Assembly (NCBI GenBank): GCA_024280065.1
Contig: JAJRQX010000209.1
Span: 1-19,467 of the forward strand
Direction of reading: 5' to 3'
Origin: Aquificota bacterium
GTDB lineage: Bacteria; Aquificota; Aquificia; Aquificales; Aquificaceae
Length of the DNA: 19,467 nt
Shown: in pieces, positions 779 to 9,943 of the stretch
Layout: every line of letters begins with the position of its first letter
How positions within the stretch are numbered: position 1 is the stretch's first letter
The notes under the pieces: model-generated
Database searches by the model: none
What the model saw: the letters and a program-made list of their open reading frames with translations, nothing else
Told to the model about the DNA's origin: nothing
Translations under genes and position numbers: made by a program

Positions 779-1330
779 TCAGGAGCTCTCCAGGGAGTAC
801 CTTATGATCTCAAGCAGCGTCAGGAGTGTCTTCTTCACATCCTCCTTGTTTTTGGCGGAAAGGGGCACAACGGGTATACCCTCCTCATCGGTTATGTCAA
901 GGGCGAACTTGACGTCCTCGGGAGGCCAGGCGTTGGGAAGGTCCTGCTTGTTGGCTCCCACAACTATTGGGACGGGAAACCTTGACTGGAAAAAGTTTAT
1001 TATCCTCCTCGCCTCGTGAAAGGTCTTCGGGTCCGTGCTGTCAACTAAAACTATTATACCGAGGGCTCCCTCACCGAGGATCTCCCACATGAAGTCAAAC
1101 CTTGACTGACCAGGAGTTCCGAAGAGGTATAGCTCGTGCTCATCGTCTATCCTTATTTTGCCGAAGTCCATAGCTACTGTCGTGTAGTCCTTCACATTCC
1201 TCTCAACCGCCGCGGAGGTCTTCCTCTCTGTGGTCACCGTCTTTATCTCGGAGACGGTGTTTATGAACTGGGTCTTCCCCGCCGCGAACGGGCCTGCTAT
1301 GACTATCTTGATCTTCTTAAGCTCCTTCAT
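779..1330 (-). CDS. Small Ras-like GTPase, COG2229 / CvnD type
   Basis: This 183-residue protein is a single G domain. The P-loop GPFAAGKT lies at residues 13-20, the switch II region reads FGTPGQSRFDF at 70-80 (a Pro-Gly-Gln form instead of the usual DxAGQ), the guanine-specificity motif NKQD is at 127-130 and SAK is at 158-160. This pattern is that of the COG2229 predicted GTPases, which include CvnD of actinobacterial conservons and are related to MglA. Such proteins switch between GDP and GTP states under control of roadblock proteins. It starts 8 bp after the DUF4388 gene with AAGGTG as ribosome site, and a roadblock gene lies two genes upstream, as expected for a partner. The unusual switch II suggests low intrinsic hydrolysis and a need for an activator; that is inference. 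Confidence 0.88.
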   Translation of the reverse strand: MKELKKIKIVIAGPFAAGKTQFINTVSEIKTVTTERKTSAAVERNVKDYTTVAMDFGKIRIDDEHELYLFGTPGQSRFDFMWEILGEGALGIIVLVDSTDPKTFHEARRIINFFQSRFPVPIVVGANKQDLPNAWPPEDVKFALDITDEEGIPVVPLSAKNKEDVKKTLLTLLEIIRYSLESS

Positions 1331-1338
1331 GCCGCACC

Positions 1339-2031
1339 TTAAAGCTGTTTGATCTTCTCAATTATCTTGGATAGAAGATCCAGAGTTATAGATGGCTTTT
1401 GGACCCTCTCCTTCCTCTTCCTGCGTATTATACCCGCAGCGAGGAAACCGTACAGGGACCTGTCCACGACAAGCCTGTCCAGGCCTGACTCTTTCCTTAT
1501 GTCCGCAACGGTCCTGTTCCCGTCCACCAGAGAGAGGACCTTCTTCTCGTCCTCCGTCAGCTTCACCTTGGACACCCTAACGTCCGCGTCCGGGGTCTTT
1601 TCAAAGATCAGAAGCTCATCCGAGATCTTCCTGTCCACCTCCTCCGGAGTAAGAAGTCTTGAAGCTCTTATTATCAGCTCCTCCACAGGGTAGAATACCG
1701 GGACGTCGCTGTCAAACTTTATGAAACCCGGGGTGAAGGAGAATATGCCCTCTTTCTGACCGAGTCTCGGAAGGAAGAACCTGTCTATGGTCTTGTGTAT
1801 ATCTTCCTTCTTGATCCTGAGTTTGTTGAGGAGCTGTTCAAAGTTTCTGTCGGTGTAAACCCTGAAGACCTTATCAACTGGCCTCGCGAATACGAGCTCC
1901 CCCTCCTTTATGTAGTAGGCCACTATCATGTCCTTCCACTCAACCAAAAGGACGCCGTTCTTTCTGTCCTTCGCAAGGACCTGAAGTATGTCCGCAAAGT
2001 TAAAAGTCGTCAGATCCCCCGTCAGAGCCAT
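1339..2031 (-). CDS. DUF4388 protein with winged-helix-like C-terminus
   Basis: The protein has 230 residues. Residues 1-100 match the DUF4388 (PATAN-like) pattern: an opening LTGDLTTFNFADILQ, then KNGVLLVEW and a GELVFA segment. Residues about 155-215 read as a winged-helix-like unit (LTEDEKKVLSLVDGNRTVAD followed by a GLDRLVVDRSLYGFLAAGII run) of the sort seen in DUF742/CvnC and MarR-type folds. A basic linker and a short helix close the protein. DUF4388 proteins often occur with roadblock proteins, small GTPases and response regulators; their biochemical role is not established. Here it lies between a roadblock gene, whose stop is 3 bp upstream, and the GTPase. The ribosome site AAGGAGG lies rather far (about 13 bp) from the ATG, inside the roadblock gene's last codons, which suggests coupled translation. 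The N-terminal domain is a clear call; the C-terminal one is an inference. Confidence 0.8.
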   Translation of the reverse strand: MALTGDLTTFNFADILQVLAKDRKNGVLLVEWKDMIVAYYIKEGELVFARPVDKVFRVYTDRNFEQLLNKLRIKKEDIHKTIDRFFLPRLGQKEGIFSFTPGFIKFDSDVPVFYPVEELIIRASRLLTPEEVDRKISDELLIFEKTPDADVRVSKVKLTEDEKKVLSLVDGNRTVADIRKESGLDRLVVDRSLYGFLAAGIIRRKRKERVQKPSITLDLLSKIIEKIKQL

Positions 2032-2034
2032 CTA

Positions 2035-2391
2035 TTAACCTATCGCCTCCTTAAGTTGTTCCTGAGCCTTCTTTATCTCCATCAACAGTAAGCCGAGCTT
2101 TGCCTCGTTGCTTGCAAGGACCGTCAGGACAGCATCCTGACCTATTCCCGTCAGCACTATGTAGCCATCCTCACCTTTTATGGTTATCTGCTCAAGGTTG
2201 CCCTTCTGGAGCTCCTCGGTGACCCTCTCACCCAAAGAGAGGATCGCTGCGCTCATAGCTGCAACCCTGTCCTCCTCTATCCCGGGTTTTAGCACCGCGG
2301 ATATAGGAAGGCCGTCCGCACTCACCAGAACCGCACCCTCAAGACCTGTGCTTTTGATCAGCTCCTGAAGTATTTTCTCGTACTTGTCCAT
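2035..2391 (-). CDS. Roadblock/LC7 domain protein (MglB/CvnB type)
   Basis: This 118-residue protein is one roadblock/LC7 domain. It begins with a helix (KILQELIKSTGLEGAVLVSA), continues with the strand DGLPISAVL, and has a conserved helix around VAAMSAAILSLGERVTEEL. Later come the paired strands GEDGYIVLTGIG and DAVLTVLAS. Bacterial roadblock proteins form dimers that bind and regulate Ras-like GTPases: MglB acts on MglA, and CvnB sits beside CvnD. The partner is almost certainly the GTPase encoded two genes downstream. The gene is second in its set, 15 bp after the membrane protein gene, with AAGGAGGG as ribosome site. It ends in a double stop (TAA TAG) just before the DUF4388 start. Length and domain extent are normal for the family. 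Confidence 0.88.
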   Translation of the reverse strand: MDKYEKILQELIKSTGLEGAVLVSADGLPISAVLKPGIEEDRVAAMSAAILSLGERVTEELQKGNLEQITIKGEDGYIVLTGIGQDAVLTVLASNEAKLGLLLMEIKKAQEQLKEAIG

Positions 2392-2406
2392 AACCTAAAA
2401 CCCTCC

Positions 2407-3117
2407 TTAAACGTCTTTAAAAAATCTTAACTCCTTCTCTATCCTCTCCTCCGTCTCCGCTAACCTGCTGAGCCCCTCCTTGACCCTATCGGGATCTATT
2501 TTATCCCGATCCTCCTCAAGCATGGCGGTCAGCTCCTGAAGGACCGTTCTGCACTCGGCCACGTGGTCCTTGATGGTCTTTATCTTATCTTTATAGATCT
2601 CAAAGGTCTGCTCAAAGGCCTGTCCTATGGCACCGACCGGGTCAAGTCCCGTGGGAAACTCCACGTTCATGTGCCCTTCATGTATCTTCTCAAGGGCCTC
2701 TATTATCTTGGCGGAGTTCTCGGATATGGTCTCAAGCTGTTCTTCAGCTTCCCTGAGCTCCCTCGTGTATTTTTCCTCAAGGTTCTTTATAAGCTCCCTT
2801 ATACTGTCCACTATACCGAGCATCTCCTCATGGAGGGGGATGGGGACGACAGCCTTGTCCCTGTGCTGTTCCTCAAGTATGTCTATAACGTACAGGAGCC
2901 TGCCGAAGAGCTCCTCAAGTTTCCCCTTGGTCCAGAGTATGTTGAAGAGGACCCAGGCCATGGCTATGGCGAAGCCCGCCCCTAAGGAGTAGTAGGGATT
3001 AACGCCCCCCAGAAAGAAGAAGACGAAGGCGAGTATAAGCCCGAAGAGGAATGAGGAGAGCAGAAAGAACTTCAGCAGCTCGCTCGCCAGGGAGGACAGC
3101 TTGGGTGTTTCCACCAT
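2407..3117 (-). CDS. Membrane protein with two helices and HAMP-like coiled coil
   Basis: The 236-residue product has two hydrophobic segments at about residues 12-36 and 43-62, separated by a short Gly/Asn/Pro loop (GGVNPYYS). A long charged, helical cytoplasmic part follows. Within it, residues about 140-180 (a KIHEGHMNVEFPTGLDP element followed by an AFEQTF helix) look like a HAMP or HAMP-derived unit, and 95-140 and 180-236 are coiled-coil-like heptads. No kinase, cyclase or methyl-accepting signalling tip is present. The protein therefore looks like a membrane receptor or anchor whose output goes through the co-encoded roadblock, DUF4388 and GTPase proteins. It heads that gene set, 54 bp after ilvN, with GAGGG upstream of its ATG. 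I recognise no named family; the membrane topology is clear and the HAMP reading is moderate. Confidence 0.75.
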   Translation of the reverse strand: MVETPKLSSLASELLKFFLLSSFLFGLILAFVFFFLGGVNPYYSLGAGFAIAMAWVLFNILWTKGKLEELFGRLLYVIDILEEQHRDKAVVPIPLHEEMLGIVDSIRELIKNLEEKYTRELREAEEQLETISENSAKIIEALEKIHEGHMNVEFPTGLDPVGAIGQAFEQTFEIYKDKIKTIKDHVAECRTVLQELTAMLEEDRDKIDPDRVKEGLSRLAETEERIEKELRFFKDV

Positions 3118-3133
3118 CCGATCACCCTCACCC

Positions 3134-3153
3134 CTTTAGATGATATCGTAAAG
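3134..3153. other. Inverted repeat in the ilvN/membrane-protein gap
   Basis: CTTTA and TAAAG arms flank GATATCATC, in which GAT and ATC can pair as well, giving an AT-rich hairpin with one bulged base. On the minus strand no T-run follows, so it is not a convincing terminator for ilvN. It may be an operator or chance. Confidence 0.2.
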
Positions 3154-3171
3154 TTTTCCCCTTTTTTAAGA

Positions 3172-3753
3172 TCAGTCCTGAAGGTTCTCGTCAACGAACA
3201 GCTCCCTCCTCATAGCCACCTTACCTGTTCTGGCCATCTCCTTGATCCCGAAGGGTTTAAGCAGTTCAAGAATTGCGTTTATCTTGTCCTCATCACCCGT
3301 AACCTCTACGGTGTACGTTTCTGGAGAGACGTCCACTATCTTCCCTCTGAATATCTCCACTATCCTGAGGACCTCATCCCTTGCCCTCGCGGTGGGTGTG
3401 TGGACCTTAACGAGGACCAGCTCCCTCTCAACGTGGGGAACGTCGGTTATGTCCCTCACCTTCAGGGTGTCTATAAGCTTTCTCAACTGCTTTACCACCT
3501 GGTCTATAACTATGTCGTCCCCTATGACCTCTATGGTCATCCTTGAGACGCCCTTCTCGTGGGTCTCTCCAACGGAGAGGCTCTCTATGTTATAGCCCTT
3601 ACCCGCTATAAGGGTCGCTATCCTCGCGAGCACACCTATTTCGTTCCTTACCAAGACGTTTATTATGTGTTTCCTGACCTGACCTTTACGGGTTTCCCTG
3701 AACTTGGGTCCCTTCTTCACCGTTATCTGGGAGCTTCCCGCCGTGTCCGCCAT
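3172..3753 (-). CDS. ilvN: Acetolactate synthase small (regulatory) subunit
   Basis: This is the regulatory partner of the thiamine-diphosphate enzyme encoded just upstream; it raises activity and carries valine feedback control in the branched-chain amino acid pathway. The N-terminal ACT domain lies at about residues 28-100, with the family signature [20 protein letters not shown] followed by IESLSV, and the IlvN/IlvH C-terminal domain fills the rest. The open frame reaches to 3810, but the ATG at 3753 is chosen. It is preceded by GGTGGGG overlapping the last codons of ilvB, lies 4 bp after the ilvB stop, and avoids a Pro/Arg-rich leader unlike any IlvN. Even so, about 27 residues precede the ACT domain, against only a few in E. 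coli IlvH. The length of 193 residues is a little above usual. The family assignment is firm; ilvH would be an equivalent name. Confidence 0.93.
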
Positions 3754-3757
3754 GATA

Positions 3758-5512
3758 CTACCCCACCAGATACATGGTCTCCGCCTCGGAGGTTCCCTTG
3801 CCGTCCTCAAGGATCATGTCTCTGTAGGATTTGCCCGGCGGCACCATCGGGAGGACGTTCTCCTCCTTGTCCACCACGAAGTCAAGGACAACGGGCCTGT
3901 CGTCTATCTTCATGGCCTCTTCAAGGACCTCCCTCACCTCCTTGGGCTTCTCGGCCCTGAAGCCCACCGCACCCATGGACTCCGCAAGCTTGACGAAGTC
4001 GGGCTGGACGCTCAGGTCAACTTCAGAGTATCTTTTGTCGTAGAAGAACTCCTGCCATTGGCGGACCATGCCAAGGTAGGCGTTGTTTATTATAGCTACC
4101 TTAACGGGTATCTTATACTGGACCGCGGTTATTATCTCCTGCATGGTCATGACGAAGGAGCCGTCCCCGTCTATAACGAAGACCTCCTTGTCTGGTCTCC
4201 CCACCTTCGCCCCTATACCTGCTGGGAGACCGAAACCCATGGTTCCGAGTCCTCCAGAGTTCAGGAACTGCCTTGGATAGGAAAACTTGTAGAACATGGC
4301 TGCCCACATCTGGTGCTGACCGACCCCCGGAACTATGATGGCGTCCCCCTTGGTAACCTCGTATATCTGCTCTATAACGTATTGAGGTTTTATGACCTTG
4401 GAAGAGTTCCTGTAGGTTAAGGGGTGTAGCTTTTTCCACTTCTCTATTTGTTCAAGCCACCTCTCCCTATCCTCAGGGTGGAGGATCTTAGCTCCCCTCT
4501 TCTTTATCTCCTCAAGGATCTTCCTTAGGACTATCTTCACGTCCCCGACTATGGGGACATCAACTATTATGTTCTTGGAGATAGAGGCGGGGTCTATGTC
4601 TATATGGATTATCTTGGCTTCAGGGGCGAACTCGTCCACCTTACCGGTCACCCTGTCGTCAAACCTCGCCCCTACAGCTATGAGGAGGTCACAGTTGTAG
4701 ACCGCCATGTTGGCGTAGTAGGTCCCGTGCATACCGAGCATCCTGAGGGAGAGAGGGTGTGTCTCGGGGAAAGCACCCTTGCCCTGGGTTGTGGTTGTGA
4801 CGGGTATCCTCATCAGCTCAGCGAGTTCAATCAGCTCCTCTTGGGCCTCCGCGTTCACAGCACCCCCACCCACGTACAGGACTGGCTTCTTCGCGGACAT
4901 GATAAGGTCCACCGCCCTCTTTATCTGCTGGATGTTGCCCTCAACGTGGGGCCTGTAACCTGGAAGGGAGGCCCTGACCTCCTCCTCGGAGGGTATGGAT
5001 ACATCGGAAAGCTGCTGTGTAATGTCCTTAGGTAGATCTATCAGAACTGGTCCGGGCCTTCCAGTTCTGGCTATGTAAAAGGCCTGCCTTATGATAAGAG
5101 GTAGCTCCTCTATGCTCCTCACGAGGAAGTTGTGCTTTGTTATCGGTCTCGTTATGCCTACTATGTCAACCTCCTGGAAGGCGTCGTTTCCTATGAGGTG
5201 GGTCGGGACCTGTCCCGTTATCACCACTATCGGGACGGAGTCCATGTAGGCGTCCGCTATGGCGGTGACTATGTTGGTGGCCCCTGGCCCTGAGGTGGTC
5301 ATGGCGACGCCCACCTTTCCCGTTGCCTTCGCATAGCCCTCCGCCATGTGGCCCGCTCCCTGCTCATGCCTGACAAGTATGTGCTTTATTGTCCCGTCCC
5401 TGTACAGGGCGTCGTAGACCTCCATTATGGCCCCGCCGGGAAGACCGAATATGACCTCCACACCCTCTTCCTTGAGGGTCTCTATGACTATGTCAGCTCC
5501 CTTTCTCGGCAT
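3758..5512 (-). CDS. ilvB: Acetolactate synthase large (catalytic) subunit
   Basis: The 584-residue protein condenses pyruvate with pyruvate or 2-oxobutyrate, the first common step of valine, leucine and isoleucine synthesis. The three domains of the family are visible: the N-terminal TPP-pyrimidine domain with the catalytic Glu50 in [14 protein letters not shown], the central FAD-binding domain with RFDDR at 284-287, and the C-terminal pyrophosphate domain with GDG at 449-451 and NN at 476-477, the metal-TPP motif. Phe111 region (GNDAFQEVD) is as in functional synthases rather than other TPP enzymes. GGAGAAAG precedes the ATG. It is first of an ilvBN pair and is divergent from atpA. No ilvC or ilvD follows, so the pathway genes are dispersed, as is common in Aquificales. 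Confidence 0.96.
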
Positions 5513-8423: not shown

Positions 8424-8721
8424 GGAAGCTAAGAAGATGCTTGATGAAGATAAAGACTCGGTGGTCCTTCTTGATGTCAGAACACCTCCCGAGCACTTTC
8501 AGGTGAGGATACCCAACTCCGAGTTCATACCCCTTGACGAGCTGAGGTTCAGATACAAGGACCTCCCCAAGGACAAGAAATACATAGTCTACTGCAGAAG
8601 CGGTGAGAGGAGCGCATTCGCAACATACTTCCTCAGACACATGGGTTATGAGGCTTACAACCTCGCAGGGGGTATAATAGCCTGGCCTTACGAGAAGGAG
8701 ACGGGAGCTCCTAAATCTTGA
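8395..8721 (+). CDS. Single-domain rhodanese-like sulfurtransferase
   Basis: This 108-residue protein is one rhodanese domain. It has the N-terminal [10 protein letters not shown] motif and the active-site loop CRSGER at residues 67-72, with the nucleophilic Cys67 that carries a persulfide. It closes with the usual LAGGIIAW. A six-residue loop of this kind fits sulfur transfer rather than the longer Cdc25-type loop. It begins inside the end of panD (29-bp overlap) with GGAGGAGG just before the ATG, and ends convergently with the EAL-like/HDOD gene, overlapping it by 11 bp. No secretion signal is visible, so it is cytoplasmic. The proximity to the sHdr genes allows a role in supplying sulfane sulfur to DsrE or TusA carriers, but it is on the other strand and the link is only inference. 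Confidence 0.92.
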
Positions 8722-9943
8722 GCATCTCCTCCGCTTTCTCCTGGGCTTCTAAGAGCTTGTTCTTCAGGTCAAAGGGCTGCATCCTGAATTTGTTGGAGAG
8801 GGTGTTCACGAGGTCCGTCAGCTTGTCTCCACCCTCCTGAAGGGCCTCTTCAAGCCTTATAACGTCCTGAAGTATCTCAAGGAGCTCCGTGTTTTTGCCT
8901 GTGAAGGCGTCTATTATATCCCGGTCCACGTTCACCTCTCTAAGGAACTGGACCTTGTCCACACCCAGGATCTGGTCTATGAGTGAGAATAGACCTACGA
9001 GATACGCTTCGTTGGTGAGCTTAGGGTTGACCCTCTTAGCTATCTCCTCGGCAATTATCGCCCTCACGAGGGACCTCTTCCAGAGCTCCGGGTTCTCAAC
9101 GGCTGCGTAGTCGTTGGTAGCGACCAGGAGAGTGAACCTCTTGAGGTTCTCCATGCCGAGGTATGCGCAGGCCTGAACTATGTCCTTTATGTCCTTTCTC
9201 TTTGCAAAGTAGGCGGAGTTAACGAACCTAAGGAGCTTTGCGCTCATTCCCACATCGCTCGCTATTATCTGGGCGAAGTCCTTTATGCTCTGGGCTGTGT
9301 TCAAGGCTCCTATCATCCTCATGAGGGTTGACTTCAGGAAGGGTGCTATCTCAAACTCCTTCACAACAGCGGGAGGTCCGAGCAGGTTCCCGGAAAAGAG
9401 GTCTCCCATGTGCTTCACCTTTGCGTAGTCATCCTCAGTTTCCACCTTGGTTATCATGACCTTCTTACCGTTCCTTCTGACTGCGCTCGCCTTGTTCTCG
9501 TCCACCGAGGAGACACTGAACTCAACTATGGAGGCTCTGTTTAAGAGGTCCACATACTTGGATGAGTAAAACTCTTCCTTTATTGAGAAGGTGCTTCCTT
9601 TCTCCTTCAGCTCGTCTATCCTCCTCAGGGCGTTCTGGTATATGCTCTGTCCGATCTCAGCCCGGGCGTGCATCACCTGAAAGACCATCCTCTTAAGGGG
9701 AAGTATATCAAGAACCTTGTTCAGGACGGAGTCTAAGGTCACGTTCATGAAGATGGGCTTTCCCGCGGATATCCTGTCTATGCCTATCTCACCTATAAGC
9801 TCCGCCACTATGAACGTTGCCTTGTTGTAAGAGACGTCCTCGGGGTAGCGGTCAAGGCTGTCACTCCTTCTGAGGTATACCTCGTATCCGAATAGGCTCC
9901 CCTCCCTGTCAAAGATCGGCTGTTTGGCGATTACGAAGCTCAT
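8711..9943 (-). CDS. EAL-like plus HDOD domain signalling protein (YuxH-type)
   Basis: The 410-residue protein starts with [20 protein letters not shown], the opening of YuxH-type proteins. The EAL-like domain covers about residues 1-200, but the EAL motif reads EVY at 21-23 and the metal-binding acidic residues of active cyclic-di-GMP phosphodiesterases are not visible, so it is probably inactive. The HDOD domain follows (about 200-390), recognisable by the [20 protein letters not shown] and [12 protein letters not shown] segments, without HD-GYP catalytic residues. Such proteins act in signalling or protein interaction. It begins within the last 35 bp of glyA, with GAGGGAG as ribosome site, and is the last gene of the sHdr train. 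Its 3' end overlaps the convergent rhodanese gene. The domain calls are firm; the role is unknown. Confidence 0.88.

Follow-up and report, generated by a model that had tools for sequence, protein, structure and literature searches.

A conserved roadblock, DUF4388 and GTPase gene run with an exchangeable first gene in Aquificota

Four adjacent genes lie near one end of the window analysed here (the whole stretch of 19,467 nucleotides), which is contig C33 of the draft genome, 79% complete, of a heat-loving Aquificota bacterium. They encode a membrane protein (gene 1), a roadblock/LC7 protein (gene 2), a DUF4388 protein (gene 3) and a Ras-like small GTPase (gene 4), and all four open frames are found on the minus strand in the nearly gapless order which the initial annotation had described, separated by 15, 3 and 8 bases for genes 1–2, 2–3 and 3–4 respectively.

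2407..3117, minus strand: gene 1, coiled-coil membrane protein with two transmembrane stretches, 236 aa (open frame)
2923..3090, minus strand: two hydrophobic stretches and a short loop, gene 1 residues ~10–65 (Kyte-Doolittle peaks in relatives)
2587..2712, minus strand: HAMP-like stretch, gene 1 residues ~136–177 (26-row alignment; profile comparison with 27 HAMP domains)
2035..2391, minus strand: gene 2, roadblock/LC7 protein, 118 aa (Pfam Robl_LC7, 2.4e-21)
1339..2031, minus strand: gene 3, DUF4388 protein with predicted C-terminal winged helix, 230 aa (Pfam, 7.8e-19; AlphaFold model)
1648..2022, minus strand: DUF4388 domain, gene 3 residues 4–128 (Pfam, 7.8e-19)
1342..1566, minus strand: putative CvnC-like winged helix and last helix, gene 3 residues ~156–230 (hhalign against 14 CvnC; model)
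779..1330, minus strand: gene 4, Ras-like small GTPase, 183 aa, G3 GTPGQ, G4 NKQD (Pfam ATP_bind_1 3.8e-18 and Ras 1.9e-11; motifs; tree)

Three of these genes recur as a unit in most of the Aquificota loci fetched. Among 136 Aquificota genomes, 116 possess a roadblock domain, 111 a DUF4388 domain and 134 a relative of the GTPase, many of these weak, while gene 1 is found in 33, with 29 strong hits (the window's included) which all belong to the window's family. Besides the window itself, 100 stretches were fetched. Of these, 92 surround a DUF4388 or GTPase hit, four surround an f3 roadblock and four come from family f5. The core DUF4388 protein is present in 90 of them, directly followed by the GTPase in 89 (in G093 as two pieces), and the roadblock–DUF4388–GTPase run is unbroken in 81 (81/100 stretches, 81/90 with the DUF4388 protein), a recurrence which shows that the order of the locus is more than chance. 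Median gaps inside the core are 4 and 1 bases, and DUF4388 and GTPase frames overlap in 40 of 90 pairs. The full run is absent from nine loci, those of seven f3 genomes and G049 (DUF4388–GTPase only) and that of G047, which is cut by a contig end; in G041 and G069 only part of the core falls within the fetched stretch. That the roadblock is not beside DUF4388–GTPase in the seven f3 genomes speaks against a universally fixed core; in the four f3 genomes with a fetched roadblock locus the roadblock is encoded elsewhere and groups with the core roadblocks in the tree. In genus g4, with two single-contig complete genomes, none of five genomes gave a roadblock hit and DUF4388 gave one weak hit.

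The gene order in related genomes is thus conserved for genes 2 to 4, but not for gene 1. The membrane protein, initially taken as a constant part, precedes only 29 of the 81 unbroken cores (in G002 only a piece is present at a contig end), its place being mostly taken by a permease or a roadblock-like fusion protein. Since 81 of 90 loci keep the three-gene run and the first position is filled by different proteins, the core is conserved and the supposed receptor exchangeable, which suggests that three of the four parts stay fixed and are combined with input proteins that differ between lineages.

The gene 1 family occupies the first position in genera g1, g2, g10 and g11, where it lies directly before the roadblock in 29 of 29 loci, with gaps of 6–74 bases which are wider than those inside the core. 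In genera g3, g6, g8 and g9, 20 of 24 roadblock–DUF4388 loci show a membrane protein of >270 aa instead, identified as an ArsP_1 permease in all three proteins scanned (E 7e-30 to 5e-43), which may be a member of the system or a fixed neighbour. In family f2, a protein of ~280–600 aa stands first in 28 of 29 loci, the remaining locus being cut by a contig end. Although none of seven scanned f2 proteins has a Pfam match above cut-off, the N-terminal 120 residues align over their full length with a broad roadblock profile that pools core and paralog rows with those of CvnB and Deinococcota (P 56 and 86%, scores 33 and 40.5; the best of 100 shuffles of the f2 side scores 16), so that this N-terminus is probably a second, diverged roadblock; against a narrow roadblock alignment P is 2%. 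Five inspected f2 proteins have an acidic middle, and in L179–L202 and L234–L238 a probable roadblock is joined by an acidic linker to a conserved C-terminal segment that carries an E/I-G-P motif. The weak PDB match that this family has to AF1502 (E 0.012 over 31 profile positions) was set aside, and the upstream frames of L147, L148, L165 and L169, which are short, partial or absent, were left unclassed.

Gene 1 itself is built of two hydrophobic stretches, a short loop and a long helical part. In 26 rows with identities to the window's protein down to 26%, G148, P155, G157, L158, D159, G162, A163 and G165 are invariant, as are K66, Y76 and E98. At the G...P...D..G motif, the profile of the family matches 27 HAMP domains from Aquificaceae with P 37–51%, where controls give 0.1–0.5% and the best of 150 column shuffles 5.9%, and in this alignment the G/P/D/G set coincides with the HAMP connector. 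HAMP is neither among the best 25 of 33 Pfam rows for gene 1 nor among the 25 families matched by most of its 26 relatives, so that the label 'HAMP-like' of the initial annotation, while moderately supported by the profile match, finds no counterpart among the Pfam matches listed. In the PDB the family also matches GCN4 fusions and designed coiled coils, which were dismissed as coiled-coil noise. On the other hand, the proposed lack of a kinase holds: neither the Pfam matches listed for gene 1 nor ten scanned first-gene proteins of relatives include a kinase domain. With E values up to 10 allowed, a CvnA-like profile gave no hit in the 100 core loci, in a weak scan that gave only one hit in 30 HAMP loci.

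The term 'receptor' turned out to be too strong: with two hydrophobic stretches, a short loop and no visible sensor domain, a receptor function of gene 1 is a guess. Af1503-type receptors of Archaeoglobus, which end after HAMP, are likewise membrane proteins with a HAMP-like part and no kinase; unlike these, gene 1 has no extracellular domain and continues for ~60 residues after the HAMP-like stretch.

Gene 3 combines the DUF4388 domain, which we take to be the PATAN domain, with a C-terminus that is, as described initially, of winged-helix type judging from the AlphaFold2 model (18 rows; mean predicted local distance difference test score, pLDDT, 90.1; predicted template modelling score, pTM, 0.83), profile comparisons and a weak TrmB match (E 0.011, below the Pfam cut-off). 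The model places helices at residues 160–168, 175–182 and 186–198, a strand at 202–204 and a last helix at 217–229. The suggested resemblance to CvnC, the third conservon protein, was borne out as profile similarity up to the last helix. A DUF4388 family profile of 89 Aquificota and four Deinococcota rows aligns over its last 77 columns (column 158 to the end) with a profile of 14 CvnC rows (P 91.5–92.2%, E 6e-7 to 8.5e-7), reaching the last residue, while the best of 150 column shuffles gives P 1.1% and the reversed profile 0.2%. Against CvnC, P is still 84% when the profile is built without its Deinococcus or without its Thermus rows; the two Deinococcus rows, which have no Pfam DUF4388 match, had been included by gene position and look. 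By these comparisons and controls both C-termini are winged helices; of the families compared, none matches either of them better than the two match each other, and an alignment that continues past the last helix up to the terminus is seen for this pair alone. Narrow common descent of the two domains is likely on these profiles, though not proven.

Several results weigh against so close a link, or against the reading of the locus as a whole. Against CvnC, the Aquificota rows alone reach only P 20–27%; for comparison, Aquificota rows against Deinococcota rows give 69%. The DUF4388 family aligns with ArsR at P 25–80% and with MarR at 41–56%, and CvnC with MarR at 44–47% over 37 columns (with ArsR at 0.3–0.6%); because ArsR and MarR also align, the likeness would be partly general to winged helices. 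The Pfam DUF742 model matches none of eight DUF4388-side proteins, and three consecutive basic residues, which follow the recognition helix in 82 of 89 relatives and in none of 14 CvnC, fit DNA binding. To these points are added the absence of gene 1 from most relatives and of a visible sensor domain from gene 1.

Comparison of the gene 3 model with the PDB by Foldseek gave no match at E 0.001 or better. Among the best 50 of 554 matches, all with E > 0.1, are the winged helix 2yu3 and FAM91A1 (probability 0.97 each) and chains of GATOR1/SEA (0.87–0.98 over 68–82 columns, 0.09–0.25 for longer alignments); the GATOR1 likeness of the model is a lead, nothing more. A tblastn search with the DUF4388 protein in plasmids gave no match.

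The families of genes 2 and 4 are related to, and distinct from, their conservon counterparts. The GTPase family aligns with CvnD at P 100 and the roadblock family with 13 CvnB at P 98.9 (13 of 14 rows, the long row L280 having been left out). GTPGQ in G3 is present in all 89 core GTPases, TVPGQ in none, and GTPGQ also in 11 of 14 CvnD. In G4, [NT]KxD occurs in 89/89 core GTPases (printed as NKQD in 86, the other three having matched first elsewhere) versus 0/14 CvnD, and DAR in G5 in 0/89 versus 10/14; an N.F pattern for the CvnD G4 matches all rows of both groups and was not used. TTV, with T instead of R in G2, is found in all 89. In the GTPase tree the 14 CvnD rows are one clade (100/99) outside the core, which splits into sets f1, f2 and f3, also takes in the long-branched f2 paralog L359, and mostly follows Aquificota taxonomy; the order of core, CvnD and Deinococcota is left unsettled by this tree. 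Neither in motifs nor in the tree, then, is gene 4 the CvnD-like protein it had been taken for. Likewise, the 13 CvnB roadblocks form their own clade (100/98) outside the core; core, CvnB and Deinococcota fall on one side (96/97) of the MglB-like and other paralogs, with a program warning of long branches meeting. Roadblock relatives in the PDB include 7f8m as the closest (2.2e-27) and, among others, cvnB5 (3leq, 5.5e-8) and MglB (6h5b, 0.006).

By motif, gene 4 would be a Group 5 MglA. Group 1 and 5 MglA are reported in Aquificae, with PATAN genes occasionally near them (after a 2006 analysis) in neighbourhoods that vary widely (PMC4316618); PATAN genes near MglB/MglA are, in general terms, already published. 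Group 5 MglA and its coupled MglB in that survey share with the core GTPGQ, the canonical G4, the T in G2 and the roadblock DG pair (84/89 here), while the three-gene run, fixed in most fetched Aquificota loci, sets the present loci apart, with an assignment to Group 5 made by motif.

The four positions do correspond in order to cvnA-B-C-D. Among 128 plasmid records with a GTPase relative, 14 actinobacterial loci were read, and all 14 show the order kinase-like protein (annotated as such, as 'ATP-binding' or as nitrate/nitrite-sensing), roadblock, DUF742 and GTPase. With conservons, also called AGPS (cvnABCD; mfpEDCB in Mycobacterium), the Aquificota set shares the nearly gapless succession of membrane protein, roadblock, winged-helix protein and Ras-like GTPase, the homology of roadblock and GTPase and the profile similarity of the gene 3 C-terminus to CvnC. 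It differs in lacking a kinase, in carrying DUF4388 and no DUF742 by Pfam, and in a GTPase with canonical G4 outside the CvnD clade, and is not a conservon. A 2026 preprint on the mycobacterial conservon reports mfpC only in actinobacteria (PMC13015309). The CvnC–DUF4388 link and the exchanged inputs were in no paper found by a literature search that had most subscription journals outside its scope.

Partial versions of the arrangement are found in Deinococcota plasmids. Thermus loci have a DUF4388 gene, and Deinococcus loci a short protein with a similar C-terminus, directly before a related GTPase; unlike the Aquificota loci, those of both genera (L269, L271, L270, L273) have the roadblock after the GTPase or unannotated (L271), and no gene 1. 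In the Thermus loci L269 and L271, protoglobin and EAL genes follow DUF4388–GTPase, a hint of gas sensing and cyclic-di-GMP.

We give about even weight to the reading that the four-gene set is a bacterial G-protein switch, in which three genes stay fixed as a core and the input can be exchanged. Gene 4 would alternate between GTP and GDP as the switch; the roadblock of gene 2 would probably dimerise and act on it as scaffold or as GTPase-activating protein (GAP), the latter by analogy to the MfpD roadblock, a GAP according to PMC9769811. Gene 3 may bind the GTPase via its winged-helix part as the counterpart of CvnC/MfpC, which is cited as guanine nucleotide exchange factor (GEF) in PMC13343842 and PMC13015309, while this role is left open in PMC9769811. 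The DUF4388 (PATAN) domain would hand the signal on, for instance to a motor or a regulator. In this genus, gene 1 would be the input, its HAMP-like stretch relaying a change at the membrane to the roadblock and thereby setting the amount of active GTPase there. Gene content, the conserved order, the families of genes 2 to 4, the GTPase motifs, the winged-helix type of the gene 3 C-terminus and its profile similarity to CvnC are observed; each interaction, the assignment of GAP and GEF, the way in which the signal runs and its target are what we infer.

It is possible, if somewhat unlikely, that gene 1 is no signal receptor and only holds roadblock and GTPase at the membrane as a passive anchor or scaffold, a part played in eukaryotes by the Ragulator anchor. 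Its build of two hydrophobic stretches and a short loop, the lack of a sensor domain and its replacement by unrelated proteins in other lineages would suit an anchor; the eight invariant residues on the HAMP connector, kept even in rows 26% identical, do not, as HAMP domains normally relay signals.

Gene 3 might alternatively be a DNA-binding regulator, the state of the GTPase deciding whether its winged helix binds DNA and the output being transcription. The winged-helix-type C-terminus of the model, the likeness to ArsR, MarR and TrmB and the basic run all point that way, yet we consider it rather unlikely: of the profiles compared, CvnC, reported as GEF in the papers cited above, matches best, the place right before the GTPase is common to conservons and Deinococcota, and two Thermus proteins have, by eye, no basic run.

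Fairly unlikely, too, is that the set works like Myxococcus MglA/MglB in cell polarity or type IV pilus activity, with PATAN touching the pilus motor. PATAN regulators bind PilB1 and PilC in Synechocystis, according to PMC12288463, and PilT is found in 134 of 136 Aquificota genomes; being near-universal, it does not set genomes that have the core apart from those that lack it. The 89 GTPases carry GTPGQ and not the TVPGQ of Group 1 MglA, and the same genome has a separate MglA/MglB-like pair. The pilus link takes its ground from the Synechocystis report together with the putative equation of DUF4388 with PATAN.

Gene 1 could also be a mere neighbour and the three-gene core alone the system. 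While its presence at only 29 of 81 unbroken cores and its wider gap to the roadblock agree with this, its position directly before the roadblock in 29 of 29 loci, across four genera in which the ilvN and MFS neighbours vary, makes it quite improbable. Acquisition of an actinobacterial conservon with loss of the kinase, for which only the same order of roles speaks, was rejected as highly improbable on the separate CvnD and CvnB clades and the taxonomy followed by most core GTPases, with DUF4388 present and DUF742 not called.

Returning to the switch with exchangeable input, roadblock, winged-helix partner and Ras-like GTPase could, tentatively and with somewhat less than an even chance, be an old bacterial three-part switch with plug-in inputs: a HAMP-like protein, a permease or a second roadblock here, and a kinase in actinobacteria, the conservon being the version with kinase input and CvnC the remnant of a PATAN–winged-helix protein. 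If the DUF4388 C-terminus is the counterpart of CvnC in Aquificota and Deinococcota, the origin of conservons would become traceable. In eukaryotes, the winged-helix regulators of GATOR1 act on Rag GTPases sitting on roadblock platforms, and in its boldest form, hinted at only by weak Foldseek matches (E of at least 0.16) of a predicted model, the proposal would have the PATAN–winged-helix protein work like these. If the DUF4388 C-terminus does correspond to CvnC, the set would also provide a small, kinase-free and probably heat-stable system for the study of how roadblock and winged helix load and unload a bacterial Ras-like GTPase, and the exchange of the first gene between lineages raises the question which signal each input feeds into one conserved switch.

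A cleaner kinase-free set of receptor, roadblock and GTPase than that of the window is encoded on contig C201 of the same genome (L348:5591-7653), where a dCache_3–HAMP protein of 371 aa, with no kinase and a HAMP ending at residue 364, is followed by an MglB-type roadblock and an MglA-like gene; this locus makes kinase-free HAMP inputs to roadblock–GTPase pairs plausible in this group. In L349, L350, L365 and L366, the roadblock–MglA pair is followed by a 355–385 aa protein, with no Pfam match in three scanned, and then by a HAMP protein, which is Tll0287–HAMP in two scanned. The MglA-like frame ends at 141 aa in L348:5591-6016 and L349:3997-4422, both departing from the reading frame of the family at nearly the same codon, after VLK; those of L350, L365 and L366 run to 187–189 aa; sequencing error, decay or frameshifting may account for the short frames. 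In G050 (L364:4418-6191), a GTPase frame precedes a 420-aa protein with a weak DUF4388 match, a zinc ribbon and HEAT repeats.

Upstream of gene 1 in the window, same-strand genes resemble ilvB and ilvN by eye (3118-5512, minus strand), the ilvN-like gene ending 54 bases before gene 1, and the gene downstream of the GTPase resembles an MFS transporter, also by eye. Genes like ilvN occur in 20 of the 100 fetched stretches, all 20 with the gene 1 family. The gap between the ilvN-like gene and gene 1 holds one sigma-70-like match, no more than expected by chance, and read-through into gene 1 from the branched-chain amino acid synthesis genes is possible. Farther upstream, at 8711-9943 on the minus strand, lies an HDOD protein (1.3e-23) with a remnant-like EAL match of 0.0049, below cut-off.

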